This document shows, piece by piece, positions 7,739-32,919 of a DNA stretch of 33,514 nucleotides (position 1 is its first letter; every line of letters starts with the position of its first letter). This DNA comes from an uncultured Acetobacteraceae bacterium. GTDB lineage: Bacteria; Pseudomonadota; Alphaproteobacteria; Acetobacterales; Acetobacteraceae. A model generated the notes under the pieces. The model made no database searches. It saw only the letters and a program-made list of their open reading frames with translations, and was not told the DNA's origin. A program made the translations under genes and the position numbers. The stretch lies in NCBI GenBank assembly GCA_903839965.1, contig CAIMEK010000523.1, positions 1 to 33,514 on the forward strand, written 5' to 3'.

Positions 7739-7766
7739 GCTGCGACTCTGGCCGCGTGGCGTGGGA

Positions 7767-8650: not shown

Positions 8651-10630
8651 ATGAATGCGACCAAGATCCTCTGGGGCCAGGTGCTCCTCGTCAGTGCCGT
8701 CGTGCTCGCCTTCATCTGGGCGGCGACGGAATGGACCGCGTGGAAGCTCGGCTTCCAACCTCAGCTCGGCCACCCCTGGTTTGAGCTTTTTGGTTGGCCC
8801 GTCTATCAGCCCCCGGCTTTCTTCTGGTGGTGGTTCGCCTACGACGCCTATGCGCGTGATGTCTTCGTCGAGGGCGCCTACATCGCCGCATCCGGCGGAA
8901 TCGCCGCCGTCGTCGTGGCTGTCGCCATGTCGGTCTGGCGAGCGCGCGAGGCGAAGCGGGTCACGACCTATGGGTCCGCGCGATGGGCCGAGACGCGTGA
9001 AGTGCGCCAAACCGGCCTGCTCGGTGACAATGGCGTGCTTCTCGGCCGATGGGGCGGCGATTACCTCCGCCACGATGGCCCCGAGCATGTGCTGTGTTTC
9101 GCCCCGACCCGGAGTGGTAAGGGCGTTGGGCTGGTGGTGCCCACCCTGCTGACTTGGCCGGGCTCGGCGATCGTCCACGACATCAAGGGCGAGAACTGGA
9201 CTCTGACAGCCGGATGGCGGGCGCGGTTCGGCCGCGTCCTGCTGTTCGACCCGACCAATGCGCAGAGCGCCGCGTACAACCCGTTGCTCGAGGTGCGCCG
9301 TGGCGAATGGGAGGTACGCGACGTCCAGAACATCGCCGACGTGCTGGTCGACCCGGAAGGTGCGCTTGAGAAAAGGAGCCATTGGGAGAAGACCAGCCAT
9401 TCGCTCCTGGTCGGTACGATCCTGCACGTCCTCTACGCCGAGCGAGACAAGACGCTCGCCGGCCTCGCCAACTTCCTCTCCGATCCCAAGCGGCCGATCG
9501 AGACCACGTTGCGCGCGATGATGACCACGCCGCATCTGGGTGAGCGCGGCGTGCATCCCGTCGTCGCCAGCGCCGCACGTGAGCTTCTGAACAAGAGCGA
9601 AAACGAGCGTTCTGGCGTGCTGTCGACGGCGATGTCGTTCCTCGGTCTCTATCGTGATCCGGTGGTGGCGAGGGTGACGCGGCAATGCGATTGGCGCATC
9701 CGCGATCTCGTCGAGAACGCACAACCGGCGACCCTCTATCTCGTCGTGCCGCCGTCCGACATTAGTCGCACCAAGCCGCTCATACGCCTGATCCTGAACC
9801 AGATCGGCCGGCGGTTGACGGAGGAGCTGGAGTCGAAGCGCCGACGTCATCGCCTGCTGCTGATGCTCGACGAGTTCCCAGCACTCGGCAGATTGGACTT
9901 CTTCGAGAGCGCCTTGGCCTTCATGGCCGGTTACGGCTTGAAGAGCTTTCTGATCGCCCAGAGCCTGAATCAAATCGAGAAGGCCTACGGCCAGAACAAC
10001 TCGATCCTCGACAACTGCCATGTGCGGGTGAGTTTCGCCACCAACGATGAGCGAACGGCAAAGCGTGTATCGGATTCGCTCGGCACGGCGACGGAAATTC
10101 GCGACGCCAAAAACTATGCCGGCCATCGCCTGAGCCCGTGGCTTGGACACCTGATGGTTTCCCGCCAGGAGACCGCTCGCCCTCTGCTGACGCCCGGCGA
10201 GGTGATGCAGCTTTCGCCCGACGACGAGCTGGTGCTCGTTTCAGGCTGTCATCCGATCCGCGCCAAGAAAGCGCGTTATTACGAAGACCCGCAATTGCAG
10301 GCGCGGATCCTGCCGCCGCCCAAGCAGAACGCCGCAGTTCCGATCCCCGGCTCCGCCAATGCGTCGATGACCCAAGACGCGGGCGACTGGCAGGAATCGA
10401 TCGTTGCTCCGGCCTCTACTGACGATCCGGACAATGCCGGCATTCGGCGAGAACCGGAACTTCCCGAGCACGAAGAGATCGTGCCCGAACCACGCACGCC
10501 GGCACAGGAGTTTGAATTGGCGGAAGACGAACCGGATGACGACGCCCAGCGTCTCCAAATCCTGCGACGCAACGTCCGAACCATCGCGCGCCAGGTGACG
10601 CTCGATCCTGCCGACGACATGGGGCTCTGA
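8651..10630 (+). CDS. traG: Type IV coupling protein TraG/VirD4
   Basis: Walker A CFAPTRSGKGVGLVVPTLL; LLMLDEFPALGRLDFFESALAFMAGYGLKSFLIAQSLNQI; N-terminal TM segment. Confidence 0.96.
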   Translation: MNATKILWGQVLLVSAVVLAFIWAATEWTAWKLGFQPQLGHPWFELFGWPVYQPPAFFWWWFAYDAYARDVFVEGAYIAASGGIAAVVVAVAMSVWRAREAKRVTTYGSARWAETREVRQTGLLGDNGVLLGRWGGDYLRHDGPEHVLCFAPTRSGKGVGLVVPTLLTWPGSAIVHDIKGENWTLTAGWRARFGRVLLFDPTNAQSAAYNPLLEVRRGEWEVRDVQNIADVLVDPEGALEKRSHWEKTSHSLLVGTILHVLYAERDKTLAGLANFLSDPKRPIETTLRAMMTTPHLGERGVHPVVASAARELLNKSENERSGVLSTAMSFLGLYRDPVVARVTRQCDWRIRDLVENAQPATLYLVVPPSDISRTKPLIRLILNQIGRRLTEELESKRRRHRLLLMLDEFPALGRLDFFESALAFMAGYGLKSFLIAQSLNQIEKAYGQNNSILDNCHVRVSFATNDERTAKRVSDSLGTATEIRDAKNYAGHRLSPWLGHLMVSRQETARPLLTPGEVMQLSPDDELVLVSGCHPIRAKKARYYEDPQLQARILPPPKQNAAVPIPGSANASMTQDAGDWQESIVAPASTDDPDNAGIRREPELPEHEEIVPEPRTPAQEFELAEDEPDDDAQRLQILRRNVRTIARQVTLDPADDMGL

Positions 10631-10636
10631 AGCGGG

Positions 10637-11077
10637 ATGCGCACCAAGCACACCTTCCGCCTGCCGCCGGATCTCGCCGGCAAGCTCGCCAATTACGCCG
10701 CCAGGAAGCATGTGCCGCAGGCGCTCGTGGTGGAGACGGCGCTGGCCTCGCATCTGTCGCCCGACGGCGCCGACCGGCTCGAGGCCGCCCTGGCCCGACG
10801 GCTCGATCGCATGACGCGGCAACTCGATCGGTTCGAACGGCATGTCACGATCTCGAACGAGGCGCTGGCACTGTTCGTCCGGTTCTGGCTGACCAGCACG
10901 CCGCCACTTCCGGATACCGCCCAAGCGGCGGCCCAGGCGAAGGGTAAGGAACGCTATGACGGTTTCGTCGAAGCCTTGGGCCGACGACTCGCGCGAGGTC
11001 GGTCGCTCGCCGACGAGATCGTGTCCGACATAGACGCTGCCCAGTCGACCGAGGCCCGGGAAAGTCAGACGTCATAA
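10637..11077 (+). CDS. CopG family (RHH) protein between traG and trbB
   Basis: N-terminal MRTKHTFRLPPDLAGKLANYAARKHVPQALVVETAL RHH pattern; conserved ICE position. Confidence 0.8.
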   Translation: MRTKHTFRLPPDLAGKLANYAARKHVPQALVVETALASHLSPDGADRLEAALARRLDRMTRQLDRFERHVTISNEALALFVRFWLTSTPPLPDTAQAAAQAKGKERYDGFVEALGRRLARGRSLADEIVSDIDAAQSTEARESQTS

Positions 11078-11219
11078 GGATCGACATTGCCGATCGCATG
11101 TCTTTCTACGCCACGGCCCTACGATCCCATCAGCCTTGTTGCGCGTGCCCGTTTCCGGCTCTTTCTAATCAACCCTGCTGATCCATCCGCCTCGACGAGG
11201 CGAGTTTGCGGGGTTCGAT

Positions 11220-12185
11220 GTGACGACGCTCTCCTTCCGATCCGAAGCCTTTGCCCGTGGCGCGCGCATGCTGCGCACCGCGCTCGGACCAGCGATCGCC
11301 GGCTATCTCGAAGACCCCAGCATCGTCGAGGTGATGCTCAATCCCGACGGCCGCCTGTGGATCGACCGGCTATCAGGCGGGCTTGAGGACACCGGCTGCC
11401 GGGTCACGCCGGCTGATGCCGAGCGGATCGTCCGGCTTGTCGCCCATCATGTCGGCGTCGAGGTTCATGCCGGCTCACCGCGTGTCTCCGCCGAGCTGCC
11501 GGAAAGCGGGGAACGGTTTGAGGGCCTGGTCCCGCCCGTCGTCGCCGCGCCGTGTTTCGCCATACGCCGCCCGGCCGTCGCGGTCTTCACCCTCGGCGAC
11601 TATGTCGACGCCGGTATCATGTCCGGCGCGCAGGCCGAACTGCTGCGGATAGCGGTCCGAGAACGGAAAAACATCCTTGTCGCCGGAGGCACCTCGACCG
11701 GCAAGACCACGCTGGTCAACGCGCTCCTCGCCGAAGTCGCCAAGACCGGAGACCGGGTGGTGCTGATCGAGGATACCCGCGAGCTGCAATGCACAGCACC
11801 CAACCTGGTGGCCCTGCGCACCAAGGACGGGGTGGCCTCACTGTCCGATCTCGTCCGTTCATCGCTACGGCTGCGGCCCGACCGCATCCCGATCGGCGAG
11901 GTGCGTGGCGCCGAGGCGCTCGATCTCTTGAAGGCCTGGGGCACCGGCCATCCCGGTGGCGTCGGCACGCTGCACGCCGGTTCCGCCATCGGTGCGCTGC
12001 GCCGCTTAGAGCAGCTTATCCAGGAAGCGGTCGTCACCGTCCCTCGCGCCCTGATTGCCGAGACCATCGACCTCATCGCCGTGCTCACCGGCCGCGGTTC
12101 GGCGCGACGGCTCTCGGAACTCGCCCGCGTCGACGGGCTTGGGCCCGGCGGCGACTACGTCCTCACCCAAGCAGGAGAACAATGA
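11220..12185 (+). CDS. trbB: P-type conjugative transfer ATPase TrbB
   Basis: [15 protein letters not shown]; Walker [41 protein letters not shown]. Confidence 0.96.
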
Positions 12186-12508
12186 TGCTCATCCACGGCA
12201 TCCGCCAGCGTCTCGCAACGGCCTGCGCCGTCATCCTTTTCGCCGCACTCACCGCGCCAGCCTATGCCGCCGGCACCAACATGCCCTGGGAGCAGCCGCT
12301 GACACAGATCCTGGATTCGATCCAGGGTCCGGTCGCCAAGGTCATTTCGGTGATCGTGATCATCATGACCGGCCTGACGCTGGCCTTCGGTGAGAGTTCG
12401 GGCGGGTTTCGAAAGCTTATTCAGATCGTCTTCGGCCTGTCGATCGCCTTCGCCGCCAGCTCGTTCTTCCTGTCCTTCTTCCAGTTCGGCGGCGGGGCGC
12501 TGGTCTGA
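12182..12508 (+). CDS. trbC: TrbC/VirB2 pilin-like protein
   Basis: Inside the longer ORF 11552..12508, ATG at 12182 overlaps the trbB stop; signal peptide and two TM segments. Confidence 0.92.
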   Translation: MMLIHGIRQRLATACAVILFAALTAPAYAAGTNMPWEQPLTQILDSIQGPVAKVISVIVIIMTGLTLAFGESSGGFRKLIQIVFGLSIAFAASSFFLSFFQFGGGALV

Positions 12509-12777
12509 TGGCGCATGAAGAGCCTGTCCCCGGCTTCTATGCACCGGTCCATCGCGCCCTGACCGAGCCGATCCTGCTCGGCGGCGCGCCGCGGGCGGTG
12601 GCGATCGTCAACGGCACGCTCGCCGCCGCCGTCGGGCTGGGCCTTCGCCTCTGGATCGTTGGCGCGGCCATCTGGCTGATCGGCCATCTGGCGGCGGTCT
12701 GGGCCGCTAAGCGCGATCCCGCCTTCGTCGAAGTCGTGCGCCGGCATCTGCGCTACCCGCAACACCTGGTGGCGTGA
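12508..12777 (+). CDS. trbD: TrbD/VirB3 family protein
   Basis: EEPVPGFYAPVHRALTEPILLGGAPRAVAIVNGTLAAAVG typical TrbD; overlaps the trbC stop. Confidence 0.94.
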   Translation: MAHEEPVPGFYAPVHRALTEPILLGGAPRAVAIVNGTLAAAVGLGLRLWIVGAAIWLIGHLAAVWAAKRDPAFVEVVRRHLRYPQHLVA

Positions 12778-12787
12778 GGGCTCGCCG

Positions 12788-15223
12788 ATGATGAATCTCG
12801 CCGAGTACCGCCGCCGCAATCAAAGCCTCGCCGACTTCCTGCCTTGGGCCGCGCTGGTCGAGAAGGGCGTCATCCTCAACAAGGACGGCTCCTTCCAGCG
12901 CACCGCCCGCTTCCGCGGTCCCGACTTGGATTCGGCGACGCCCGCCGAACTCGTCGCGATTACCGGGCGCCTCAACAACGCGCTGCGTCGCTTGGGCTCC
13001 GGCTGGGCGATCTTCATCGAGGCCCAGCGCCAGCCCGCGAACCGCTATCCCGAGAGCGTTTTTCCCGACGCTGCCTCCAGTCTCGTAGATGCCGAACGCC
13101 GGGCGCAGTTTGAGGAGGAAGGCGCGCATTTCGAGAGCCGGTACTTCCTTACCCTGGTCTGGCTGCCGCCGGCCGACGACGCCGTCCGCGCGGAGGCCTG
13201 GCTTTATGAGGGGCGCACGCGGGAGGGCGCCGACTGGCGCGCCACGCTGACCGGCTTCATCGACCGCACCGATCGGGTGCTGGCGCTGATCGAGGGCTTC
13301 ATGCCCGAATCCTCCTGGCTCGATGATCCGGAGACGCTCACCTACCTTCACTCCTGCGTCTCGACCCGCCGCCAACGCGTGCGCGTGCCCGAGACGCCGA
13401 TTCACCTCGACGCCATCCTGGTCGATGAGGACCTGACCGGTGGCCTCGAGCCGCGTCTCGGCCGCGCCCATCTGCGCACGCTCACCATCATGGGATTCCC
13501 GTCGCAGACCTGGCCGGGTTTGCTTGACGACCTCAACCGGCTCGCCTTTCCCTATCGCTGGTCGACCCGCGCGATCTGCCTCGACAAGACCGACGCGGCC
13601 AAGGTGCTCGGCCGCATCCGCCGCCAATGGTTCGCCAAGCGCAAATCGATCATGGCGATCCTGAAGGAGGTCATGACCAACGAGGCGTCGGTGCTGATGG
13701 ACAGCGACGCCGCCAACAAGGCGCTCGACGCCGATGCGGCGCTGCAGGAACTCGGCTCCGACCTCGTCGGCCAGGCCTATGTCACCGCCACGGTCACGGT
13801 CTGGGACGAGGATCCCCGCATGGCCGACGATCGCCTGCGTCTGGTCGAGAAGACCATCCAGGGTCGTGACTTCACCTGCATGCGCGAGACGGTGAACGCC
13901 ATCGAGGCGTGGCTCGGAAGCTTGCCGGGCCACGTCTACGCCAATGTCCGCCAGCCGCCGATCTCGACCCTCAATCTCGCCCACATGATGCCGTTCTCGA
14001 CGGTCTGGGCCGGGCCGGAACGGGATGAGCATTTCCATGCGCCGCCGCTGTTCTTCGCGCGGACGGAAGGTTCGACGCCGTTCCGGTTTTCGCTGCATGT
14101 CGGCGATGTCGGCCACACGCTGATCGTGGGTCCGACCGGCGCGGGCAAGAGCGTGCTGCTGGCGCTGATGGCGTTGCAGTTCCGCCGCTATGCGGGCGCG
14201 CAGGTGTTCGCCTTCGACTTCGGCGGTTCGATCCGCGCGGCCACGCTCGCCATGGGCGGCGACTGGCACGATCTCGGCGGCGCGCTTGGCGACGACTCGG
14301 CCGAACCGGTGGCCCTGCAGCCGCTCGCCCACATCGACGAAGCCGGCGAACGCGCCTGGTCGGCCGAATGGATCGCGGCGCTGCTCGGCCGCGAGGCCGT
14401 GACCATCACCCCGGAACTGAAGGAGCATCTATGGTCCGCACTGACCTCGCTCGCCTCGGCCCCGATCGCCGAACGGACGATCACCGGCCTGTCGGTTCTC
14501 TTGCAGTCGAATGCGCTGAAGCAGGCCTTGAAGCCCTATACCGTAGGCGGTCCCTGGGGACGATTGCTCGATGCCGAGACGGAGCGGCTTGGCGACGCCG
14601 AAATCCAGGCCTTCGAGACCGAGGGCCTGATCGGCGCGGGCGCCGCGCCGGCCGTCCTCTCCTATCTCTTTCACCGTATCGAGGACCGGTTCGATGGGCG
14701 CCCCACGCTGCTCATCATCGACGAGGGCTGGCTCGCGCTCGACGATCACGGCTTCGCCGGCCAGCTCCGCGAGTGGCTGAAGACGCTCCGGAAGAAGAAC
14801 GCCTCCGTCATCTTCGCCACCCAGTCGCTCGCCGACATCGACGGCAGCGCGATCGCGCCAGCCATCATCGAGAGCTGCCCGACGCGGCTCTTCCTGCCCA
14901 ACGAGCGCGCGCTCGAACCACAGATCGCCACCATCTATCGCCGCTTCGGCCTGAACGACCGGCAGATCGAGATCCTCAGCCGCGCGACGCCGAAGCGTGA
15001 CTATTACTGCCAGTCGCGCCGCGGTAACCGCCTGTTCGAGCTGGGATTGAGCGAGGTCGCGCTCGCCTTCATCGCGGCTTCGTCCAAGACCGACCAGACC
15101 GCCATCGCAGAGACGATCGCCGTCCACGGTCGCGACGGATTCGCCGCCGCATGGCTTCGCGGCAAGGGCCTCGATTGGGCGGCGGACATGCTCGTCAACC
15201 GCAGCCAGGAGGTTTCCCCATGA
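12788..15223 (+). CDS. trbE: Conjugal transfer ATPase TrbE (VirB4-like)
   Basis: Walker A VGPTGAGKSVLLALMALQFRRY; LLIIDEGWLALDDHGFAGQLREWLKTLRKKNASVIFATQSLADI. Second ATG at 12791. Confidence 0.96.
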   Translation: MMNLAEYRRRNQSLADFLPWAALVEKGVILNKDGSFQRTARFRGPDLDSATPAELVAITGRLNNALRRLGSGWAIFIEAQRQPANRYPESVFPDAASSLVDAERRAQFEEEGAHFESRYFLTLVWLPPADDAVRAEAWLYEGRTREGADWRATLTGFIDRTDRVLALIEGFMPESSWLDDPETLTYLHSCVSTRRQRVRVPETPIHLDAILVDEDLTGGLEPRLGRAHLRTLTIMGFPSQTWPGLLDDLNRLAFPYRWSTRAICLDKTDAAKVLGRIRRQWFAKRKSIMAILKEVMTNEASVLMDSDAANKALDADAALQELGSDLVGQAYVTATVTVWDEDPRMADDRLRLVEKTIQGRDFTCMRETVNAIEAWLGSLPGHVYANVRQPPISTLNLAHMMPFSTVWAGPERDEHFHAPPLFFARTEGSTPFRFSLHVGDVGHTLIVGPTGAGKSVLLALMALQFRRYAGAQVFAFDFGGSIRAATLAMGGDWHDLGGALGDDSAEPVALQPLAHIDEAGERAWSAEWIAALLGREAVTITPELKEHLWSALTSLASAPIAERTITGLSVLLQSNALKQALKPYTVGGPWGRLLDAETERLGDAEIQAFETEGLIGAGAAPAVLSYLFHRIEDRFDGRPTLLIIDEGWLALDDHGFAGQLREWLKTLRKKNASVIFATQSLADIDGSAIAPAIIESCPTRLFLPNERALEPQIATIYRRFGLNDRQIEILSRATPKRDYYCQSRRGNRLFELGLSEVALAFIAASSKTDQTAIAETIAVHGRDGFAAAWLRGKGLDWAADMLVNRSQEVSP

Positions 15224-15963
15224 CCCATCGTCGCCTACGCACGGCGTTTACCGTCGGCGTCGCCGCCCTCACGCTGGCCACCGCCAGCGTCCCCGCGCAC
15301 GCGCAATGGATCGTCTTCGACCCGACCAATTTCACGCAGAACGTGCTGACAGCGGCGCGCGAGCTGCAGCAGGTCAACAACGAGATCCAAAGCCTGGAGA
15401 ACCAGGCGACCTCGCTCATCAACCAGGCCAAGAACCTGGCGAGCCTGCCGTATTCCTCGCTGGCCCAGCTCGAGCAGTCGATCACCCAGACCCAGCAGCT
15501 CCTCGCTCAGGCGCAGCGGATCGCCTATGACGTCACCACCATCGACCAGGCGTTCACGCGGACGTATCCGCAGGCCTATTCGAGTGCGACCTCGTCTCAA
15601 CAGCTCGTCGCCGATGCGCAGACCCGCTGGCAGAACTCGCTCGCCGGGTTCCAGGACGCCATGCGCGTCCAGGCAGGCGTGGTGCAGAATCTCGACAGCA
15701 CCCGCACCCAGATCGACGCGCTGGTCTCATCCAGCCAATCCGCGACCGGCGCGCTTCAGGCCGCCCAGTCCGGCAACCAGCTTGTCGCGCTCCAGACCAA
15801 ACAACTCGCGGACCTCACCGCCGTCATGGCGGCGATCGCCCGCGCCCAGAGCCTGGAAGGCGCGCGCAATGTCGAGAGCCAGGAGCAAGCGCAACAGCAG
15901 CTCTCCCGCTTCCTCAACTACGGTCAGGGCTACCAGCCCCAGACCGTGCAGATGTTCCACTGA
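15220..15963 (+). CDS. trbJ: P-type conjugative transfer protein TrbJ
   Basis: Signal peptide then QWIVFDPTNFTQNVLTAARELQQVNNEIQSLENQATSLINQAKNL. ATG overlaps the trbE stop. Confidence 0.94.
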   Translation: MTHRRLRTAFTVGVAALTLATASVPAHAQWIVFDPTNFTQNVLTAARELQQVNNEIQSLENQATSLINQAKNLASLPYSSLAQLEQSITQTQQLLAQAQRIAYDVTTIDQAFTRTYPQAYSSATSSQQLVADAQTRWQNSLAGFQDAMRVQAGVVQNLDSTRTQIDALVSSSQSATGALQAAQSGNQLVALQTKQLADLTAVMAAIARAQSLEGARNVESQEQAQQQLSRFLNYGQGYQPQTVQMFH

Positions 15964-16286
15964 TGCGCGGTAGGTTGCTCAATATCGCTGCGATCGGTCG
16001 CGCCGCCGGGTTCGTCGCGGTCGCGGCGGCGATCGTCGCGACCGCCATTCACTTCCGGCACGACGACACGGGCGCGGATGCGTCCCTGCGCAACCCTTCG
16101 ATCCACAATGATCCGCTCGCGCGTGAGCTGGCGCGCTGCCAGGTGATTGGCATGGCCGCGAAGGATGACGCAGCCTGCGAAGCCGCCTGGGCCGAGAACC
16201 GGCGACGGTTCTTCACCTACCGCAAACCAACGGAGACCTCGCAGGCGCCCGCGCCGTCCTCGACCACACCGACCAAGGGCAGGTAG
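15963..16286 (+). CDS. Putative entry exclusion protein TrbK-alt
   Basis: Single N-terminal TM, then DPLARELARCQVIGMAAKDDAACEAAWAENRRRFF; conserved trbJ-trbL spacing. Confidence 0.85.
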   Translation: MRGRLLNIAAIGRAAGFVAVAAAIVATAIHFRHDDTGADASLRNPSIHNDPLARELARCQVIGMAAKDDAACEAAWAENRRRFFTYRKPTETSQAPAPSSTTPTKGR

Positions 16287-16291
16287 GCGAC

Positions 16292-17554
16292 ATGGGCGGC
16301 ACCGGCGTCATCGACCGTTTCCTGGGGATATTCACCCAGTACATCGATTCCGACTTCGGTCTCGTACAGGGCGATGTGCGCTGGCTCGCCGGCGTGCTCA
16401 TTGTCATCGACATCACATTGGCCGGCCTCTTCTGGGCGATGGTGCCGGACGAAGACGTCATCGCACGCCTGATCAAGAAGACGCTCTATATCGGCGTCTT
16501 CGCCTTCATCATCGGCAACTTCAACAATCTCGCGCAGATCATCTTCAATTCGTTCGCCGGGCTCGGCCTCAAGGCTGGCGGCGGGACGCTCAGCCAGGCG
16601 CAGCTCCTTCAGCCGGGCCGTCTCGCCCAGGTCGGCATCGACGCCGGCAAGCCGATCCTCGACTCGATCTCGGGGCTGATGGGCTTCGTCAGCTTCTTCG
16701 ACAACTTCATCCAGATCGCCATCCTGCTGATCGCGTGGCTGATCGTCGTCATCAGCTTCTTCATCATGGCGATCCAACTCTTCGTCAGCCTGATCGAGTT
16801 CAAGCTCACGACGTTGGCAGGATTCGTGCTGGTGCCCTTCGGCTTCTTCGGCCGCACCGCCTTCCTCGCCGAGAAGGTGCTGGGCAACGTCGTCTCGTCG
16901 GGGGTGAAGGTCCTGGTGCTCGCCGTGATCGTCGGCATCGGCTCGACGATCTTCGGACAGTTCACCAGCGGCTTCAACAATCCGCCGACCATCGACGACG
17001 CGCTGACCCTGATCCTCGCGGCGCTGTCGCTGCTCGGCCTGTCGATCTTCGGACCTGCGATCGCCAACGGTCTGATCGCCGGCGGCCCGCAGCTCGGCGC
17101 CGGGGCGGCCGTGGGGACGGGACTGGCGGTCGCAGGCGTCGGCGCAGCGGGTGCGGCCCTCGCGGCCGGTGGTATTGGCGCTGCTGGCGGTGCCCTTGCT
17201 GGGACAGCGCGAGCGGGCGCGAGCGTCGCGGGTGGCGCCACCGCTGCCTATCGTGCAGGCGGCCTCTCCGGTGTCGCCGAGGCGGGCGTTTCGGCCGCAG
17301 CCAGTCCCCTCCGGCGCGCGGCGTCCAGCCTCCGCGAAAGCTTCGCGGCCGGGGGCCGGGCCGTGACGGGGGAGGCGAGCCCGGCGGGTGCGAGTGCTCC
17401 GAGCCAGACCGAGACATCCGGACCGCCGGCCTGGGCGCAACGGATGAAGCGCAACCAGACCATCAGCCGCGGCGCCTCCGCCGCTGACCATGCCGTCCGC
17501 TCCGGCGATCGTCCCAGCGGCGGCAGCGGCGTCGATCTCTCCGAAGGAGAATAG
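16292..17554 (+). CDS. trbL: P-type conjugative transfer protein TrbL
   Basis: Multi-TM protein, GGTGVIDRFLGIFTQYIDSDFGL; Ala/Gly-rich C-terminus typical of TrbL. Confidence 0.94.
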   Translation: MGGTGVIDRFLGIFTQYIDSDFGLVQGDVRWLAGVLIVIDITLAGLFWAMVPDEDVIARLIKKTLYIGVFAFIIGNFNNLAQIIFNSFAGLGLKAGGGTLSQAQLLQPGRLAQVGIDAGKPILDSISGLMGFVSFFDNFIQIAILLIAWLIVVISFFIMAIQLFVSLIEFKLTTLAGFVLVPFGFFGRTAFLAEKVLGNVVSSGVKVLVLAVIVGIGSTIFGQFTSGFNNPPTIDDALTLILAALSLLGLSIFGPAIANGLIAGGPQLGAGAAVGTGLAVAGVGAAGAALAAGGIGAAGGALAGTARAGASVAGGATAAYRAGGLSGVAEAGVSAAASPLRRAASSLRESFAAGGRAVTGEASPAGASAPSQTETSGPPAWAQRMKRNQTISRGASAADHAVRSGDRPSGGSGVDLSEGE

Positions 17555-17557
17555 AAA

Positions 17558-18238
17558 ATGTTCCGACGGCCAACCGTCCGCTACGGCGCGACCCCCAAAC
17601 CCGAGACGCCCTACCAGAAGGCCGGCCAAGTCTGGGACGAGCGGATCGGATCGGCGCGGGTACAGGCGAAGAACTGGCGGCTCGCCTTCTTCGGCATGCT
17701 CGTGCTCAGCTTCGGCCTTGCCGGTGGCCTCGTCTGGCAGTCCGCGCGCGGCACGATCACGCCGTGGGTGGTGCAGGTTGACAGGTTCGGCCAGTCGCAG
17801 GCCGTGGCGCCCGCCGTCGCCGATTACCGCCCGACCGATCCCCAGATCGCCTGGCACCTCGCACGCTTCGTCGAGGAAGTGCGCAGCGTGCCGGCCGATC
17901 CGGTTGTGCTGCGGCAGAACTGGCTCGATGCCTACAGCTACGTCACCGACAAGGGTGCGCTGGCGCTGAACGACTACGCGCGCACCAACGATCCCTTCTC
18001 CAAGGTCGGCAAAACACAGGTCTCGGTCGAGGTGTCGAGTGTGATCCGCGCCTCCGACGACAGCTTCCGCGTCGCCTGGACCGAGCGGCGCTATGCCGAC
18101 GGCTCGCTCGCCGCCACCGAACGCTGGAGCGCGATCCTCACCATCGTCGTGCAGACGCCGACCGACGCCGACCGGCTGAAGAAGAACCCGCTCGGCGTCT
18201 ACGTCCACGCCCTCAACTGGTCCAAGGAGCTCGGCTGA
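17558..18238 (+). CDS. trbF: Conjugal transfer protein TrbF (VirB8-like)
   Basis: TPYQKAGQVWDERIGSARVQAKNWRLAFFGML; WTERRYADGSLAATERWSAILTIVV. Confidence 0.95.
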   Translation: MFRRPTVRYGATPKPETPYQKAGQVWDERIGSARVQAKNWRLAFFGMLVLSFGLAGGLVWQSARGTITPWVVQVDRFGQSQAVAPAVADYRPTDPQIAWHLARFVEEVRSVPADPVVLRQNWLDAYSYVTDKGALALNDYARTNDPFSKVGKTQVSVEVSSVIRASDDSFRVAWTERRYADGSLAATERWSAILTIVVQTPTDADRLKKNPLGVYVHALNWSKELG

Positions 18239-19224
18239 TGCGCAAGCTACCCCTCGCAACCCTTCTGCTCGCCTCGGTCTCGCTCGGCGCCTGCTCGACC
18301 TGGAAGCCGCCCGAAATCAGCTACGACGACACGCCCCGGCAAGCCGTGCTGCAACCCGATCCGCCCAAGCCAGTGCAGATCGTCGAGCTTCCCAAGCTGC
18401 TGCCGCTGCCGGACCAGCTCAAACCGATCCCGGGCGCCAAGACCGCGCCGCCCGAAGCCGCCGATCCGCGCACGCGCGTTGCAGAGGCAAACGGGGCTGC
18501 GCGCGTGCAGCCGACCCGCGCCGGCTACATCAATGCGATCCAGGTCTATCCCTTCTCCGACGGGGCGCTCTATCAGGTCTATTCAGCACCCGGCGAGATC
18601 ACAGACATCGCGCTCGAGCCCGGCGAGCAGCTCGTCGGTTCGGGCCCCGTCGCCGCCGGCGACACCGTGCGCTGGATCGTCGGCGACACCGAAAGCGGTA
18701 CGGGCCAGACCAAGCGTGTCCATATCCTGGTCAAGCCGACCCGGCCGGACCTCATCACCAACCTCATCATCAACACCGACCGGCGCACCTATCACCTCGA
18801 GCTGCGTTCGGACGACAAGACCTATATGGCGTCGGTCTCCTGGGTCTATGCTCAGGACCAGTTGATCGCGCTGCGCCAGCAGAATGCGGCCGCCGTTGCG
18901 GCGGCGCCGATCGCCTCCGGCGTCGACATCAACGCGCTGAACTTCCGTTACCGCATAGAGGGCGACAATCCCGCCTGGCGGCCGCTGCGGGCCTTCGATG
19001 ACGGGCGGCAGGTATTCATCGAGTTTCCGGCTGGCATCAGCCAGGGTGAGATGCCGCCGCTCTGGGTCATCGGCGCGGAAGGCGGAGCCGAGCTCGTGAA
19101 CTACCGCGTCCAGGGCAACCACCTGATCGTCGATCGGCTATTCGCCGCAGCCGAGCTAAGGCTTGGCGGCGATCCGCAGAAGAAGGTCCGCATCGTCCGT
19201 ACCGACGGGAGACCGCAGTCGTGA
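18238..19224 (+). CDS. trbG: P-type conjugative transfer protein TrbG (VirB9-like)
   Basis: Lipobox-like LGACSTW; YPFSDGALYQVYSAPGEITDIALEPGEQL; TNLIINTDRRTYHLELRSDDKTYMASVSW. Confidence 0.95.
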   Translation: MRKLPLATLLLASVSLGACSTWKPPEISYDDTPRQAVLQPDPPKPVQIVELPKLLPLPDQLKPIPGAKTAPPEAADPRTRVAEANGAARVQPTRAGYINAIQVYPFSDGALYQVYSAPGEITDIALEPGEQLVGSGPVAAGDTVRWIVGDTESGTGQTKRVHILVKPTRPDLITNLIINTDRRTYHLELRSDDKTYMASVSWVYAQDQLIALRQQNAAAVAAAPIASGVDINALNFRYRIEGDNPAWRPLRAFDDGRQVFIEFPAGISQGEMPPLWVIGAEGGAELVNYRVQGNHLIVDRLFAAAELRLGGDPQKKVRIVRTDGRPQS

Positions 19225-20411
19225 CCGACGCGCCCCACGAAGAGGGGGCCGTGCCCGTGGAAGGCGAGCGGACGCCGCAGGAGATGAGGCTTCGGTCGAG
19301 CCGGGCTCCTGTGACACGGCTCTCCCGCAAGGTGCTCATGGGTCTTGGCGCTGTCGCGGCCGTCGGGATCGGCAGCGCGCTGTTCTTCGCCTTGCAGCCG
19401 CGTCACCAGACCGGCGGCTCCGAACTCTACAACACCGATAACCGTTCGACGCCGGACGGCCTCGCCAACCTGCCGCGAGATTATACGGGCCTGCCGCGGA
19501 ACGCGCCGCGGCTCGGCCCGCCGCTGCCCGGAGATCTCGGCCGGCCGATCGTCAACGCCGGCGCGCCGGCGCCAGGAATGCCCACGCCGGCCGCGCCACC
19601 CGATCCCGAGCAGCAGCGCATCGCCCAGGAACGTGAGGCGGCGCGCACGAGCCATCTCTTCACGCCCACCAACACGAGACAGGTCGCTGCCGCGGCCGTG
19701 CCGGGAGCAGCGCCGGCCGCCGACGGCACGGTGGCGCCCGCCGTCGCCGGTTCGAGCGATCTCACCTTGCAGGATCACAAGCTCGCCTTTCTGAACGGCG
19801 CCGTCGACCGCCGCACCGTCAGCCTCGATCGCGTGCAGGTGCCGGCGAGCCCCTATGTGCTGCAGGCCGGCGCCGTGATCCCCGCCGCGCTGATCACCGG
19901 ACTGCGCTCCGACCTGCCTGGCCCCGTCACGGCGCAGGTGACCGAAGATGTCTATGACAGCCCGACCGGCAAGTTCCTCTTGATCCCGCAAGGCGCGCGG
20001 CTAGTCGGTCAGTACGACGCCCAAATCGCCTTCGGCCAATCGCGCGCGCTCCTTGTCTGGAACCGCCTGATAATGCCGAACGGGCGATCGATCGTACTCG
20101 AGCGTCAGCCCGGCGCGGACCCGGAGGGCTATGCCGGTCTGGAGGATGAGGTCGACAATCACTGGGGCATGCTGTTCAAGGCCGCGATCCTGTCGACCAT
20201 CCTCAGCGTCGGGTCGGAGGCGGGCACCAGCAACAATGAAAATTCGCTGGTGCAGGCCTTGCGGCAAGGAGCCTCCGACAGCATCAGCCAGACCGGCCGG
20301 CAGGTCGTGCAACGCTCGCTCAACGTCCAGCCGACAATCACCATCCGGCCGGGCTTCCCGGTCCGAGTGCTGGTCACTCACGATCTCGTTCTCGAACCCT
20401 ATCGCGGCTGA
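19221..20411 (+). CDS. trbI: Conjugal transfer protein TrbI (VirB10-like)
   Basis: One TM, Pro-rich linker; SPYVLQAGAVIPAALITGLRSDLPGPVTAQVTEDVYDSPTGKFLLIPQGARLVGQYD. Confidence 0.96.
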   Translation: MTDAPHEEGAVPVEGERTPQEMRLRSSRAPVTRLSRKVLMGLGAVAAVGIGSALFFALQPRHQTGGSELYNTDNRSTPDGLANLPRDYTGLPRNAPRLGPPLPGDLGRPIVNAGAPAPGMPTPAAPPDPEQQRIAQEREAARTSHLFTPTNTRQVAAAAVPGAAPAADGTVAPAVAGSSDLTLQDHKLAFLNGAVDRRTVSLDRVQVPASPYVLQAGAVIPAALITGLRSDLPGPVTAQVTEDVYDSPTGKFLLIPQGARLVGQYDAQIAFGQSRALLVWNRLIMPNGRSIVLERQPGADPEGYAGLEDEVDNHWGMLFKAAILSTILSVGSEAGTSNNENSLVQALRQGASDSISQTGRQVVQRSLNVQPTITIRPGFPVRVLVTHDLVLEPYRG

Positions 20412-24006: not shown

Positions 24007-24954
24007 CTATGCCGCCCCACGCCGGTGTAGCGATACCGACAGGGCGCGCTGGCGCAGGGTCTCGTAGGAAGCGGCCAGCGCGGCCATCGCTGCGGTACGG
24101 TCCTCGACGGCATCGCCGGCCAGGTCGGGGTGGTTCCGCCGCGCTGCCTGGTAATAGGCGTTCTTGATCTCCTCGTCGGAAGCCGAGACGCTGACGCCGA
24201 GCAGCGCCTGCGCGCGCTCGACCTCGCCGGCGAGCGGCAGGTGGATTTGCACCGAGATGAAACTATAGGGCGCCATCGGGCCGACCATGCGGAAGGACAA
24301 TCCACCGGAAAACGCCTCGTCCAGCTTGCCCAGCGCGCTCTCCAGCGTGTCCACCGCGTCGCGGTCGAGCAGCAATGCGAGGTCGATAACCGCCTCCGGT
24401 TCGGGCGGCACGGTGGCGATGCTGTCCGCGGCAAGGGGGCGGAGCGCGTCGAGGATGTTGATTCCCACCCCCTCCCGCCGGTGCTGGATCTCGTGCATCA
24501 GCTCCTCCCCGGCCCCGCGCCGCACCGCTTCGGTGTTGGTGGCCGCCAGGCGCGCGGCAAGATCGCCGATCTGGGCGACTTCCCGCACCACCGTCTGCAC
24601 GTTCCACAGCACGCTGAGGTCGATCTCGATCCGCTCGCCCAGCTCGCTGAAGGCCCGCTCGAATAGCTTGGCCCCCTCGGTCAGGATGCGCCGCACCATG
24701 GCGTCGTCATCGGCGAGCGTGCCGAAGCTCACCGGCAGGACCGGGGCGAATACCATCACGGCTTCGACGATGCGCTGCACCGAAAGCAGCCAGGGGGCGA
24801 GCTCGGATCGGCTCCGCCCGCGCAAGCCCCCCGGCGGCGGGCTCATCACCACAGCGGCGAAGGGGCCTCGGACAATGGCCCCGGCATCGGGGGGAACGAC
24901 GCCGGCGCCCAGTCGCTCGGTCTGGATGACCGCCAGCATGGCAAGCCCGCTCAT
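24007..24954 (-). CDS. GvpF/GvpL family protein with C-terminal J-domain
   Basis: GvpF/L motifs LPVSFGTLADDDAMVRRIL and VGPMAPYSFISVQIHL, then ALLGVSVSASDEEIKNAYYQAARRNHPDLAGD...AASYETLRQRA (J-domain with HPD at about 24124-24132). ATG at 24954 overlaps the upstream stop. Confidence 0.88.
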   Translation of the reverse strand: MSGLAMLAVIQTERLGAGVVPPDAGAIVRGPFAAVVMSPPPGGLRGRSRSELAPWLLSVQRIVEAVMVFAPVLPVSFGTLADDDAMVRRILTEGAKLFERAFSELGERIEIDLSVLWNVQTVVREVAQIGDLAARLAATNTEAVRRGAGEELMHEIQHRREGVGINILDALRPLAADSIATVPPEPEAVIDLALLLDRDAVDTLESALGKLDEAFSGGLSFRMVGPMAPYSFISVQIHLPLAGEVERAQALLGVSVSASDEEIKNAYYQAARRNHPDLAGDAVEDRTAAMAALAASYETLRQRALSVSLHRRGAA

Positions 24955-27059
24955 TTGTTGCCTCCCCGGCCGGTGGTCGCCAGCGCCGCTTCGAAGTGCC
25001 TTGCTTCGACCAGTCCGTTCGACGCCGGCACCGCGCCGTTCACCACGTCGCGGATCGTCGCCATGCCGGCCCGGCGGCACAGCGCCTCTAACTCGGCGCC
25101 GACCATGCCGTCGGTGCGCTGTGCGAGACTTGCCAGATCGACGTCGTCCGCCAGCTTCATGCGCCCCGCATGCACCGCGAGAATCGCCGTCCGCTCCGAC
25201 AGATCCGGCCGGTTGAATTCGACCAGCAGGTCGAAGCGTCCCGGACGCACCAGAGCCGAATCGATCTGATCCAGCCGGTTGGTGGCGGCCACCACGGTGA
25301 CGCCGCGCAGATCCTCGATGCCGTCGAGTTCGGTCAGCAACTGGGCCACCACGCGGTCGGTAACCTCACCGCCATGCTGGCCGCGATTGGGCGCCAGGGT
25401 GTCGATCTCGTCGAAAAACACGATGCAGGGCGCGGTCTGGCGGGCCTTGCGAAACACCTCGCGCACGCCGCGTTCGGACTCGCCCACCCACATGCTCAGC
25501 AGCTGCGGGCCCTTGACCGCGATGAAATTGGCCCCGCTCTCGCCAGCCAGCGCCTTGGCCAGCAGCGTCTTGCCGGAGCCGGGAATGCCATGGAACAGGA
25601 TGCCCTTGGGCGGACGCACCCCGGTCTGGCGGAACAATTCGGCGTAGCGGACCGGCCACTCGATCGCCTCGATCAGCAATTGCTTGGTGGCCTCCAGCCC
25701 GCCGACATCGCTCCAGCGCTTATCCGAGACCTGGGTGACGATCTCGCGCAGCGCGCTCGGTTGGATATCGGCCCGGGCGGCGGCGAAATCCGCTTCCGTG
25801 ACCGCCAGCGCGGCGAGCTTCTCCGCCTCGATCCGCGCCTGGTTGAAGTCGATGTCGGGGATTAGGCGCCTCAACGCACTCATCGCCGCCTCGCGACACA
25901 AGGCGGCGATGTCCGCGCCGACGAAGCCCGGGGTCTGAAAGGCCAGGGCGGCGAGATCAACCTCGGCGGCGAGCGGCATGCCGCGGGTGTGGATGTCGAG
26001 AATCTCCCGCCGCCCCGCCGCGTCGGGCACGCCGATGACGATCTCGCGATCGAAGCGCCCGGGGCGGCGAAGCGCGGGATCGAGCGCGTTGGGGATGTTG
26101 GTGGCGGCGATGACGATCACCTGCCCGCGCGACTGCAACCCGTCCATCAAGGCGAGCAATTGTGCCACCACCCGGCGTTCGACCTGACGATCGCCGGTCA
26201 TCTCCTCGCGCTTGGGAGCGATGGAGTCGATCTCGTCGATGAAGATGATCGCCGGGGCGTGCTGCTCGGCCTCATCGAACATCTTGCGCAGCTGGGCCTC
26301 GGAGGCCCCGTACATCTTGTCGATGATCTCAGGGCCGTTGACGTGCAGGAAATACACCCCGGATTCGCGCGCCACCGCGCGGGCGATCAGGGTCTTGCCG
26401 GTGCCGGGCGGCCCGCACAACAGCACGCCCTTGGGCGGATCGATGCCGAGATGGAGGAAGACCTCTGGATGCTTGAGCGGCAGCTCGATCATCTCGCGGA
26501 TGCGGCGGACTTCCTTGCGCAGGCCGCCGACATCCTCATAGGTCACGGCGTTGGAAGGCTCGCCCCCGCCGACGCAGCGCACCGCGGTGCCGGGGCCGAT
26601 AATTACCGAACCGGCGGGATCGGCAGCTTCGACGGTGAACTCACGCGCCTGCATGCCGCCCAGAATGGCGCGCACCCGGTCGCCGTTCACCATCGGGATG
26701 CCGTCGAGCAGCCTTGCCAGGGTGGCGCCCTCGGCCGGACGCGCCCGCCCGCCGATCTCCTTCAGCGTCACCGAACGCGCGAGGCTCACCGCGGCGGGGC
26801 TGAGCGCGACCTGCTCGTCGAGCCCCGCACCGGCATTGACCCGCACCAGGCCATCCATCTGGATCAGCTTCTGCCGCCGCTGGGCGGCATGGGCCGGCAT
26901 CACTCGCGCCACCGTGGTCCGCTTGCCGGCGATCGCGACGGTGTCCCCGACCTGCAGGCCGAGCAGCGCGATATCCTCGGGATCGAGCCGGACCAAACCG
27001 CGCCCGACATCGCGTGAGGGCGCCTCCGAGACGCGGAAACCCGACGCAGCGTCCGTCAC
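24951..27059 (-). CDS. CDC48/VCP-type double AAA+ ATPase in gvp operon
   Basis: Two AAA modules (GPPGTGKT..FIDEIDSIAPKR; GIPGSGKT..FFDEIDTLAPNRG) plus a CDC48-N-like N-terminal domain. GTG at 27059 overlaps the gvpJ-like stop (GTGA). Confidence 0.92.
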   Translation of the reverse strand: MTDAASGFRVSEAPSRDVGRGLVRLDPEDIALLGLQVGDTVAIAGKRTTVARVMPAHAAQRRQKLIQMDGLVRVNAGAGLDEQVALSPAAVSLARSVTLKEIGGRARPAEGATLARLLDGIPMVNGDRVRAILGGMQAREFTVEAADPAGSVIIGPGTAVRCVGGGEPSNAVTYEDVGGLRKEVRRIREMIELPLKHPEVFLHLGIDPPKGVLLCGPPGTGKTLIARAVARESGVYFLHVNGPEIIDKMYGASEAQLRKMFDEAEQHAPAIIFIDEIDSIAPKREEMTGDRQVERRVVAQLLALMDGLQSRGQVIVIAATNIPNALDPALRRPGRFDREIVIGVPDAAGRREILDIHTRGMPLAAEVDLAALAFQTPGFVGADIAALCREAAMSALRRLIPDIDFNQARIEAEKLAALAVTEADFAAARADIQPSALREIVTQVSDKRWSDVGGLEATKQLLIEAIEWPVRYAELFRQTGVRPPKGILFHGIPGSGKTLLAKALAGESGANFIAVKGPQLLSMWVGESERGVREVFRKARQTAPCIVFFDEIDTLAPNRGQHGGEVTDRVVAQLLTELDGIEDLRGVTVVAATNRLDQIDSALVRPGRFDLLVEFNRPDLSERTAILAVHAGRMKLADDVDLASLAQRTDGMVGAELEALCRRAGMATIRDVVNGAVPASNGLVEARHFEAALATTGRGGNK

Positions 27060-27358
27060 GACGCGCTCAACGCACTGGCTTCCAGGCGCTCGATCCGGCT
27101 GCGCAACTCGCGGTTTTCCTCCTCCAGCCGATGGGCGTTGGAGGACAGGTAGGGATCGCTCTGCCACCAGTTGATGCCCATCGCCATCGCCCGGTCGACC
27201 GAGGCCACCACCAGGCGCACCCGGATGTTGAGCAGGTCGACCTCGACCAGGGAAATCGAGATATCGCCGGCGATGACGATCCCCTTGTCCAGCACCCGCT
27301 CCAGAATATCCGCCAGTCCAGACGCCTGGACCGAATGCTGCATGCGTTGCTCGTTCAT
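27056..27358 (-). CDS. gvpJ: GvpA-family minor protein, GvpJ-like
   Basis: LADILERVLDKGIVIAGDISISLVEVDLLNIRVRLVVASVDRAMAMGINWW, then a coiled-coil-like EEENRELRSRIERLE tail. Confidence 0.88.
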   Translation of the reverse strand: MNEQRMQHSVQASGLADILERVLDKGIVIAGDISISLVEVDLLNIRVRLVVASVDRAMAMGINWWQSDPYLSSNAHRLEEENRELRSRIERLEASALSAS

Positions 27359-28215: not shown

Positions 28216-28983
28216 TCAGCCCCAGTTGACGACGATGTTGACGAAATTATAAGGCGGCACCGGGCCGACATATTTGAACCGGAAGCGCTCCCCCAGCTCG
28301 GCGTCCATCGCGCGGATGGCGGCGTCGAGTGCTGGCTCAACCGGTTGCTCGACCAGATAGGCGGCATTGATCACCATCTGCTCGCCGATGGTCTTGTTCA
28401 GCCTACTCTTATGGATGAAGCCGCGCAGGCGATCGTGGATCATCTGCTCGTCGGAGGTGCGCTTGCGCTCCATCGCCTGCGCGATCAGCTCGCCCAGCCG
28501 GACCCGATCGAAATGGGTCCGCTCGGCCGAGCGTCCGACCAGGCTGTCGCGCAGGGTGCGGATGGCGGTGTTCTCGGCGATGATCTCGGGGAAGATCACC
28601 CCGTCATGCCACGACGCCTTCAGCCCGAGCTCCACCCGTCCGCGCATCTGTTCCAGCAGCAGCGTCAGCTCGTCGTAGCGCCCGCGCAGCACCTTGGTGG
28701 CGATGGTGTGCACGTCGGGGGCGATTGTGCCGAAGCGCACCGGCAGCAGCACGAAGCGCTGCATCACCTCCTCGAGCACCAGGGTATGCGCCATCATGTT
28801 GCGCCTGGTGTTGTCGTATTCGATCATCGGGGAATCGCTGACCACCGCGCTCACCTGGCCCTCGGTGATGGTGTGCACCAGATCGCCGCGACCGCCGATC
28901 CCCTTGGTCTCGAAGCTAGCCGGGGCGGCGGCGTTGATGATGGCGTAGAGATACTTGCCCTGGGTCTGCTCGGTCACGCTCAT
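28216..28983 (-). CDS. gvpL: GvpF/GvpL family gas vesicle protein
   Basis: GKYLYAIINA; LLPVRFGTIAPD; MVINAAYLVE; YVGPVPPYNFVNIVVNW. ATG at 28983 overlaps the upstream stop. Confidence 0.94.
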   Translation of the reverse strand: MSVTEQTQGKYLYAIINAAAPASFETKGIGGRGDLVHTITEGQVSAVVSDSPMIEYDNTRRNMMAHTLVLEEVMQRFVLLPVRFGTIAPDVHTIATKVLRGRYDELTLLLEQMRGRVELGLKASWHDGVIFPEIIAENTAIRTLRDSLVGRSAERTHFDRVRLGELIAQAMERKRTSDEQMIHDRLRGFIHKSRLNKTIGEQMVINAAYLVEQPVEPALDAAIRAMDAELGERFRFKYVGPVPPYNFVNIVVNWG

Positions 28984-29999
28984 GACACGCCCCCGGCGCG
29001 CAGCGCGGTTTCCGTCTCGGCGCGGCGCAGCGTCACCGCATTCCCGCCCTCGCCGAGGCCAGCGGATAGCAAGGCCAGCACCTCGTCGCACCATGGCAGC
29101 AGCTGCTCGCTGGCCCAATCCGGGCGGGGGAGCAGATACAAATCGTTGAGGGCAAAGAACATCTCCCCGACCACCTTGTCCAATGACGGCAGGATCCGCC
29201 GGCGCAGGATGTCCTCGATTTCCCCCCCCTGCGCGGCGTGGTCGGTGCGGGTGAACGGCGCCAGTTCGAGGGCAAAGGCCAGCGTGGTCTGGGCATCGGC
29301 GAGGCGTAGCAGCAGGCTCTCCATCGCGGCACTCATGGTTCCCGCCGCCATCGCCGCACCCAGCCGGCGGCGCAGTTCCGGGCGCTGGGCGAGGTTGGCC
29401 GCCGCCCGCTCGACGGTGACCCGATCGAGATGCGTCATCGCCGCATCGAAGCCATTGGCGATGCAGGTATCGTTGGCGAACAACTCGCTGAGGGCACCGA
29501 TCGACAAGGTCTCGCCCAATCGGGCCAGCAGCGGCGCCACCTCGGCCGGCGCCTCGGCGACGATCTTCAGACCGCGCGCGGCGCCGGAGGCGGCGCATTC
29601 GGCCACCGGATGGGCGTGTTCGTGGGCCAGCAGCCCCTCCACCGCCAGCGCATCGCCCCAGTAGCCCTCGGCCAGCATCACTTGGCGGTTGACGAAGACG
29701 AAGCATTCCCGCTGGTGGCGCAGATCATAGAGGTTGACCATCGGCCGCTGCGGCAATTGCAGCGCCTCCGGCTCGCCCAGGCCGTGGAGCTGACGCAACC
29801 GCCCGACCAGCGGGGCGAGGTTCTCTAGCACGAACAGCGTGACTGCCTCGTGCGGCCAGAGGTCGCGCGCGACGTAGCCGCTGATCACCAGCCGCTCCGC
29901 CTCGACCACGGTTTCGATATCCCCGACGCAATCCGAAATCACCCGCACAAGCGTGGCGCCGACGGGAAACTCCCTGAACGCCTTGCCCGTGCCGTGCAT
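28980..29999 (-). CDS. Conserved-looking protein with HEXXH motif (putative zincin metalloprotease) in gvp operon
   Basis: GLLAHEHAHPVAE (HEHAH = HEXXH, 29610-29624) and downstream SIGALSELFANDTCIANGFDAAM; embedded between Hsp20 and gvpL genes. Confidence 0.75.
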   Translation of the reverse strand: MHGTGKAFREFPVGATLVRVISDCVGDIETVVEAERLVISGYVARDLWPHEAVTLFVLENLAPLVGRLRQLHGLGEPEALQLPQRPMVNLYDLRHQRECFVFVNRQVMLAEGYWGDALAVEGLLAHEHAHPVAECAASGAARGLKIVAEAPAEVAPLLARLGETLSIGALSELFANDTCIANGFDAAMTHLDRVTVERAAANLAQRPELRRRLGAAMAAGTMSAAMESLLLRLADAQTTLAFALELAPFTRTDHAAQGGEIEDILRRRILPSLDKVVGEMFFALNDLYLLPRPDWASEQLLPWCDEVLALLSAGLGEGGNAVTLRRAETETALRAGGVS

Positions 30000-30003
30000 C
30001 GGA

Positions 30004-30528
30004 TCAGGCCTTTCTGAGCTGGACCTGGAGAATGCCGTTGCGGAAGCTGCGCCGTAGCGAGGAAGCGTCCACCGGGACCGGCAGCGCGACCTCCTTGGCG
30101 TAGCGCCGCGTTCCGGTGGTCTCCAGCGACAGGACGGAGGCCGCGGCCGTCAGGGTCAGTTCCTCCTCCGCCACCCCGGGCAGTTCGGCGGTGACGACGA
30201 TCTCCTCGCCTTCGTCGAAGACATCCACCAGCGGCTCGCGCACATCGCTCACCACCGGGCCCTTCGGCGAGGGTCGGACATTGCCGAAGCGCCTGACCTC
30301 CGGCGCCCCGCCGAGGCCGGTGCGGATGGAGAAACCATACACCCCCTGCGCCTGGTCCCTCAGTCCCTTGACCTTGAACGCACCCTGGCGTTCAACTTGG
30401 TGTTCGCCCTGCTCGACCATGTTGCCCAGCAGCTCGACGAAACTGCCCAGGCCTCGGAAAACCGCACCAATCCCGGCCAGCGGTTCCGCCTCGTCGTCGT
30501 GAACGGGTTCCTTGGGCTTCTTCGTCAT
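30004..30528 (-). CDS. gvpH: Hsp20 family gas vesicle protein (GvpH-like)
   Basis: Alpha-crystallin domain VREPLVDVFDEGEEIVVTAELPGVAEEELTLTAAASVLSLET...RSFRNGILQVQLRKA; N-terminal LGSFVELLGNMVEQGE typical of GvpH. Confidence 0.88.
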   Translation of the reverse strand: MTKKPKEPVHDDEAEPLAGIGAVFRGLGSFVELLGNMVEQGEHQVERQGAFKVKGLRDQAQGVYGFSIRTGLGGAPEVRRFGNVRPSPKGPVVSDVREPLVDVFDEGEEIVVTAELPGVAEEELTLTAAASVLSLETTGTRRYAKEVALPVPVDASSLRRSFRNGILQVQLRKA

Positions 30529-30540: not shown

Positions 30541-30873
30541 TCAGTATTCGATCAGTGCTTCGGCCCGGCGCGCGGGTGGCCGAAAATTCGGCATGGCATC
30601 CGCATGCTTCCGAACGCGCGAGGCCGGCGTCGCCGGCTTGCCCAGCAGCGCGCGCTTGAGCGCGGCGAGTTCCGTCTCGAGTGCTGCCAGCTTGCGCTCG
30701 GCGGCGTCCTTGCGGGCGACCCAGGCGCCCAGTTCGCGCAGCAGCCGAGCCCGCTCATTCTCCAGCCTGGCGAAGCGGCTGACCGCCTGCGTCCGGTTGG
30801 CCGGAGCCGAGCGGTCGGAAAGCGTGCGCAGCGTCGTCACATCGCGCAGGCTGCGCCGCCGATCCTCCTTCAT
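30541..30873 (-). CDS. Small basic coiled-coil protein in gvp operon (GvpV-like candidate)
   Basis: MKEDRRRSLRDVTTLRTLSDRSAPAN...ENERARLLRELGAWVARKDAAERKLAALETELAALKRAL; start overlaps the gvpN stop. Family name tentative. Confidence 0.65.
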   Translation of the reverse strand: MKEDRRRSLRDVTTLRTLSDRSAPANRTQAVSRFARLENERARLLRELGAWVARKDAAERKLAALETELAALKRALLGKPATPASRVRKHADAMPNFRPPARRAEALIEY

Positions 30874-32060: not shown

Positions 32061-32816
32061 CTACGCCGGACCCTTGTGACCGGAGATCACCGATGCCGCA
32101 GCTTCGCGCTTCGCCTTCGCCTCCGCCTCGCGCTTTGCCGTCGCCTCGGCTTCGCGCTTTGCCGTCGCCTCGGCTTCGCGCTTCGCCATCGCCTCGGCCT
32201 CGCGCTTCGCCGTTGCCTCGACCTCGCGCTTCACCATCGCCTCGGCCTCGCGCGTCGCCGTCGCCTCGGCCTGGGCACTCTCCCGCCGCACCGACGCCGC
32301 ACCGACGCTCCCAGCCGCGTGCGAGTGCCAGATCTCCGCTGCGGCGCACCGATCCTTGGTCAAAGAGGCAAGGAAGGCGCGATGGTGCTTTCCTATGGCA
32401 GCAACATCGTTGCGCAGGGCTGTCTGGTACACCAGACGTTCCCGGCGGTTCTTCACCGCCGATGTTCTCCGGGTGACCGATTCCAGGCTCAGCCATTTGC
32501 GCGTCAGCACCCGCCGCCGCTTCGCGCCATCGGCAAGCGTCCGCTTCAACTCCGCAGTCTGTGCGACCCGCTGACGGCGAACATCGCCGATCATTTTATT
32601 CGCCGCGCCAAGCACTATCGCCGTGGCCAGGCGGGTGCTGCGCAACGCCTCGGAACGCAGCGCCAGTTGCGCCGCCGCCGTCCGGTGTCTGCTCGCGCGG
32701 GCATCAGCCAAGTGCCGCCCGGTATCGTCGCGGATGCAATCCAACGCCTGGCGCCGCGCGGAACCCGCCGACGCTAGCGAATGAACGACCGTGCTCATCT
32801 CGCTGCTCAATGACAT
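32061..32816 (-). CDS. Highly basic, Ala-rich helical protein with C-terminal 8-aa repeats (GvpC-like candidate)
   Basis: ATG at 32816 preceded on the minus strand by AAGGAGG. Lies between gvpA and gvpN, where gvpC sits in other clusters. C-terminus EATATREA/EAMVKREV/EATAKREA/EAMAKREA/EATAKREA/EATAKREA/EAKAKREA. Confidence 0.7.
   Translation of the reverse strand: MSLSSEMSTVVHSLASAGSARRQALDCIRDDTGRHLADARASRHRTAAAQLALRSEALRSTRLATAIVLGAANKMIGDVRRQRVAQTAELKRTLADGAKRRRVLTRKWLSLESVTRRTSAVKNRRERLVYQTALRNDVAAIGKHHRAFLASLTKDRCAAAEIWHSHAAGSVGAASVRRESAQAEATATREAEAMVKREVEATAKREAEAMAKREAEATAKREAEATAKREAEAKAKREAAASVISGHKGPA
32100..32267 (-). repeat. Seven in-frame 24-bp tandem repeats (8-aa units) in the GvpC-like gene
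   Basis: Consecutive units of about (gcttcgcgctttgccgtcgcctcg) on the + strand, encoding EAxAKREA. Confidence 0.9.
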
Positions 32817-32848
32817 TAACCGATCCTCCTTGTCCGCATGCTGTCCAG

Positions 32849-32919
32849 GCGCCCGACCCGGGGCGCGGGAGACGTCCGGTGAAAGCACGACGCCAGTGCG
32901 GCGAACGCCCTTTCACCGG
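32849..32919 (-). promoter_or_regulatory. Tandem hairpins between gvpA and the GvpC-like gene (possible attenuator/processing site)
   Basis: CCGGTGAAAG (32876-32885) / CTTTCACCGG (32910-32919), perfect 10-bp arms; GCGCCC (32849-32854) / GGGCGC (32861-32866). No U-tract. Confidence 0.6.

Follow-up and report, generated by a model that had tools for sequence, protein, structure and literature searches.

The window analysed here, a stretch of 33,514 nucleotides from an uncultured Acetobacteraceae bacterium, carries on its minus strand a gas-vesicle (gvp) cluster that begins with gvpA, a helical protein in the GvpC position, gvpN, a 110-aa coiled-coil protein, hsp20 and the gene for a 339-aa protein. 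It continues with gvpL, gvpG, gvpO, a 92-aa protein, a GvpJ/A paralogue and a CDC48-type AAA ATPase, and ends with a GvpF bearing a C-terminal J-domain and two more GvpF/L paralogues. The GvpC-position protein (275 aa, 32061-32888) is without a Pfam match and bears a long tail of KREAEA-type repeats, and the coiled-coil protein of the gvpN-hsp20 interval (30541-30873), which reaches the cut-off of no Pfam or NCBIfam family, is kept in related gvp clusters. The hsp20 gene is GvpH-like (30004-30528, Pfam HSP20 4.3e-5), the gvpL/gvpF gene (28216-28983) matches Pfam GvpL_GvpF at 2.5e-64, and the ATPase (24951-27167) includes the N-domain of its class (Pfam AAA 4.3e-91, CDC48_N 2.3e-23), all again on the minus strand. 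The J-domain protein (24007-25080, minus strand) is recognised as a GvpF/L paralogue (NCBIfam GvpL 3.7e-11), and at residues 292-342 it matches NCBIfam DnaJ models at up to 4.3e-6, with an HPD motif kept in most alphaproteobacterial relatives; it is a gas-vesicle protein with a DnaJ-type domain built in. Adjoining the cluster on the plus strand is a conjugation region (1932-20411) with genes for an SLT transglycosylase, a DUF3363 relaxase, a TraG/VirD4 coupling protein and TrbE, TrbL, TrbG/CagX and TrbI homologues, and because of this adjacency the gvp genes may be mobile, as cargo of a conjugative plasmid or an integrative element. On the GvpN tree the window's cluster groups more closely with Aquabacter and Stella than with the gvp clusters of its own family.

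The gene for the 339-aa protein reads from an ATG at 29999 to 28980 on the minus strand, which the initial annotation had left unstated, and the features that drew the initial annotation to it, a HEHAH motif, a glutamate 42 residues past its second histidine, and a place behind hsp20 with an ATGA overlap onto gvpL, were all confirmed on the sequence. The codons for H126-E127-H128-A129-H130 occupy 29624-29610, inside the block LLAHEHAHP, and those for E172-L-F-A-N176, an ExxAN motif, lie at 29472-29486, the E172 codon being 29486-29484. Ahead of both, V101-F-V-N-R105 (29685-29699) is invariant and a candidate edge strand preceding the active-site helix. The hsp20 stop ends at 30004, leaving a gap of 4 nt before the start codon, and the TGA of the gene (28982-28980) overlaps the gvpL ATG (28983-28981); the gene is translationally coupled to gvpL.

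Relatives of the protein are not readily found. The single sequence used as query returned no credible relative in genome contigs, viral contigs, plasmids or 150-299 genomes drawn from the family and order to which it belongs, even though GvpL/F genes are present in 25 of 398 genomes of the window's family and many of those clusters were read. Homologues were reached indirectly, by locating sister gvp clusters via GvpN and then searching with a profile. The sister clusters yielded homologues at the matching place in Stella vacuolata (L058) and Aquabacter spiritensis (L067), the profile added one more (L078) from a class-wide draw, and in the family of Aquabacter it found a further six, all in gvp clusters. 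Eight of these homologues span the HEXXH motif, and the ninth (L093), which lies downstream of hsp20, leaves its contig within the gene and before the motif. All homologues found sit in alphaproteobacterial gas-vesicle clusters, and in the genome sets searched none occurs outside such a cluster. The order hsp20, homologue, gvpL holds for all seven intact homologues, for the window and for the frame-broken L078; in each intact gene the start codon lies 3-5 nt past the stop of hsp20, and the ATGA overlap is seen in seven of the eight intact genes including that of the window (six of the seven homologues), L092 having GTGA there. The L078 cluster (2218-11702) has interrupted frames in the peptidase homologue, gvpL, cdc48 and gvpF, reflecting either decay of the cluster or indels introduced in assembly.

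Most related gvp clusters are without the gene, so that gas vesicles can in general be made without the putative peptidase; it is an accessory confined to one lineage of gvp clusters in the Alphaproteobacteria. On the GvpN tree the carriers of the gene are clustered but do not form a single clade, since L092 branches outside and the remaining eight carriers have as their sister a strongly supported group made up of ten non-carriers. Two changes are needed to explain this topology, namely a gain early on and a single loss, or else a transfer.

An alignment of nine members (the window protein, the seven homologues that are complete, and the initial part of L078, where the frame is unbroken), with identities to the window protein of 35-52%, indicates where the constraint lies. 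Conservation of the HEXXH and of E172 among homologues had been set beforehand as a refutation test for a metalloprotease, and both withstood it at identities reaching down to ~32-35%: HEHAHP is invariant in all nine rows, as are E172, A175 and N176 of the ExxAN. Across the eight full-length rows LLAHEHAHP is the longest invariant run, and its nine residues were equalled in 2 of 20000 column shuffles. The spacing from H130 to E172 is 42-46 residues across the family, and residues further from the motif (H50, D92, E98, N104, R105, E134 and H190) are also invariant. Between near relatives dN/dS is 0.15-0.21, and these proteins are under purifying selection. A HEXXH by itself is weak evidence, because it arises in 1.8% of shuffles of the 339-aa protein and because the J-domain GvpF of the same cluster carries a presumably chance HEIQH outside the family; the motif is counted as real here because each of the eight homologues that extend over it retains it unchanged. 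For the third ligand E172 is the preferred candidate, since E163 varies among relatives and E134, although invariant, is just 4 residues beyond H130; both of the latter were rejected.

Searches of Pfam and NCBIfam gave no family for the protein or any of its relatives, and sequence searches of the PDB with the protein or its profiles found nothing, which agrees with the initial annotation in that no named Gvp family could be recognised. Two AlphaFold models were made, from 3 and 4 sequences, with pLDDT of 72 and 71. In the second, strands at 7-13, 16-22, 52-58 and 99-104 are predicted, the HEXXH falls on a helix (117-133) preceded by a beta strand, and E172 lies on a further long helix (155-181) followed by a helical C-terminal domain. 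Compared with the PDB by Foldseek, this model has gluzincins of families M61, M1 or M9 in 15 of its 20 top places, which do not amount to fifteen independent votes because M1 structures are abundant in the PDB; the best match has E 0.06, probability 0.66 and a TM of ~0.24, and none is significant. The first model likewise places M61 and M1 on top, and a viral fold library returned near its top weak unnamed matches only. Of the zincin fold that had been put up for checking, the predictions bear out the helix with HEXXH and the long helix after it that holds E172, and the top matches are gluzincins, though none of them reaches statistical significance; a gluzincin-like fold is supported by the models but not proven.

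With the M1, M61 and M9 peptidases of clan MA(E) the predicted model shares the HEXXH helix, the glutamate on the following helix and the helical C-terminal domain, but sequence similarity is absent, fold scores are E 0.06 or worse with a TM of ~0.24, and those proteins are much larger. In M1 peptidases the spacing from histidine to glutamate is also shorter than 42. The order of motifs (a strand ending in N, then AHExxH, then E-x-x-A-N) is that of the M78 (ImmA/IrrE) peptidases, and an exploratory hhalign path pairs HEXXH with HEXXH, though at a probability of 0.7%; unlike M78, the 339-aa protein has another length, another C-terminal domain and no Pfam match. Tests of membership of M78 (PF06114) and of M61 (PF05299) found no support: neither gives a hmmscan match, and small alignments of the two families built from class genomes gave no significant hhalign score (probability 0.7% for M78 and 1.6% for M61). 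Like the Gvp accessories GvpF/L, GvpH/Hsp20 and GvpN, the protein is always encoded in a gvp cluster and its gene coupled to gvpL, but it matches none of their named families. It is best placed as a new, unnamed family of gvp accessories with a probable gluzincin-type site.

Many of the accessory proteins on which the assembly of gas vesicles depends are of unclear role, and a dedicated protease is absent from the literature searched. Among the named Gvps none is a protease in the sources as searched for such terms (PMC9501494, PMC11445434), and in the titles, abstracts and term counts of gas-vesicle papers mentioning metalloproteases or peptidases no such gene is described. In another system it has been proposed that GvpF and GvpG chaperone the shell protein and that GvpN, an AAA+ protein, serves in folding or proofreading (PMC11445434), and for this reason a quality-control peptidase would fit a gvp operon.

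On balance, and with some reserve, we favour a soluble cytoplasmic zinc metallopeptidase of gluzincin type that is dedicated to gas-vesicle proteins and acts with the chaperones of the cluster. Solubility is in keeping with the absence of a long hydrophobic segment, the top 19-residue Kyte-Doolittle mean being 1.3 in the window protein and no higher than 1.66 in the relatives tested. H126 and H130 are predicted to bind zinc, with E172 of the ExxAN as candidate third ligand, and E127 would be the general base in zinc-dependent peptide hydrolysis. The enzyme would most likely trim or remove a gas-vesicle client in the cytosol, for maturation or for quality control, and would work alongside the Hsp20, the J-domain GvpF and the CDC48 ATPase encoded by the same cluster. 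Candidate clients include an aggregation-prone GvpA/J shell protein, the helical protein in the GvpC position or an assembly factor; GvpC as the only client is unsupported, helical GvpC-position proteins being found in clusters both with and without the gene. A conserved putative peptidase between hsp20 and gvpL would make proteolytic shell maturation or quality control testable by a single E127A mutant, and such a peptidase could serve in the engineering of switchable acoustic reporters.

A zinc-binding protein of zincin fold that does not cut, serving GvpL/GvpF-type proteins as a scaffold or chaperone stabilised by metal and retaining its HEXXH for structural purposes, is rather unlikely, though likelier than the other alternatives. 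The position of the gene between hsp20 and gvpL would suit it, a substrate or cleavage site is not evident, and the invariance of so many residues beyond the motif, from H50 to H190, would be as natural in a scaffold. The glutamate that follows the first histidine of a HEXXH has no zinc-binding role in zincins, and a drifting scaffold would be expected to lose E127 in some members, whereas it is invariant in 9/9. That the HEXXH is a chance or structural feature of a non-peptidase, one that has a wholly different fold and another part in the assembly of gas vesicles, is improbable: the lack of significant matches in sequence and fold searches and the moderate confidence of the AlphaFold models leave room for it, but no block of the family is more conserved than the HEXXH, and a second helix carries a co-conserved glutamate whose spacing is gluzincin-like.

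CDC48/p97 has metalloprotease partners of the Wss1/SPRTN type, and the presence of a CDC48-type ATPase in the same cluster as the putative peptidase recalls that pairing, by analogy only. A cdc48 gene is found in every carrier cluster whose contig reaches far enough; unlike the known pairing, many gvp clusters carry CDC48 without this peptidase. The ATPase is proposed, by inference, as an unfoldase partner of the 339-aa protein. An extension of the preferred peptidase reading, which we regard as doubtful, is that this would be the first gas-vesicle-dedicated protease and would form with the CDC48 unfoldase, Hsp20 and the J-domain GvpF a self-contained machine for maturation or take-down. If so, the cell would proofread or dismantle its vesicles and in that way regulate buoyancy. 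In the other gvp lineage cdc48 lies at the far end of the cluster (e.g. L060, L061, L064 and L065), and in the Octadecabacter gvp cluster (L055) a CDC48 gene was not found.

Since HEXXHPL looks like the H-box of a histidine kinase, a DHp-like protein with LLAHEHAHPLSE as its H-box and H126 as phospho-acceptor was also considered; the pattern H-E-x-x-[HNQ]-P-L does resemble such a box, and VAAYVAHEINHPLGTI, of the same form, occurs in kinase-like proteins encoded close to other gvp clusters, but this reading is highly improbable and was rejected on domain searches and on the strand-helix order of the AlphaFold model, there being no HisKA or HATPase_c match in any member (at E up to 10 in one search and up to 1 in another), a beta strand ahead of the helix in the models, fold matches that are peptidases, an ExxAN whose invariance it leaves unexplained, and an invariant H130 at a position where H-boxes vary, accepting N, Q, H or T. 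Proteins with a histidine-kinase-like H-box (e.g. AHEINHPLGTI) are encoded near gvpA in gvp clusters without the peptidase, at L059:257-1093, L064:5617-6465, L065:6701-7525, L066:7042-7917, L068:7080-7913 and L069:6993-7775, and these may represent a sensor for gas-vesicle genes.
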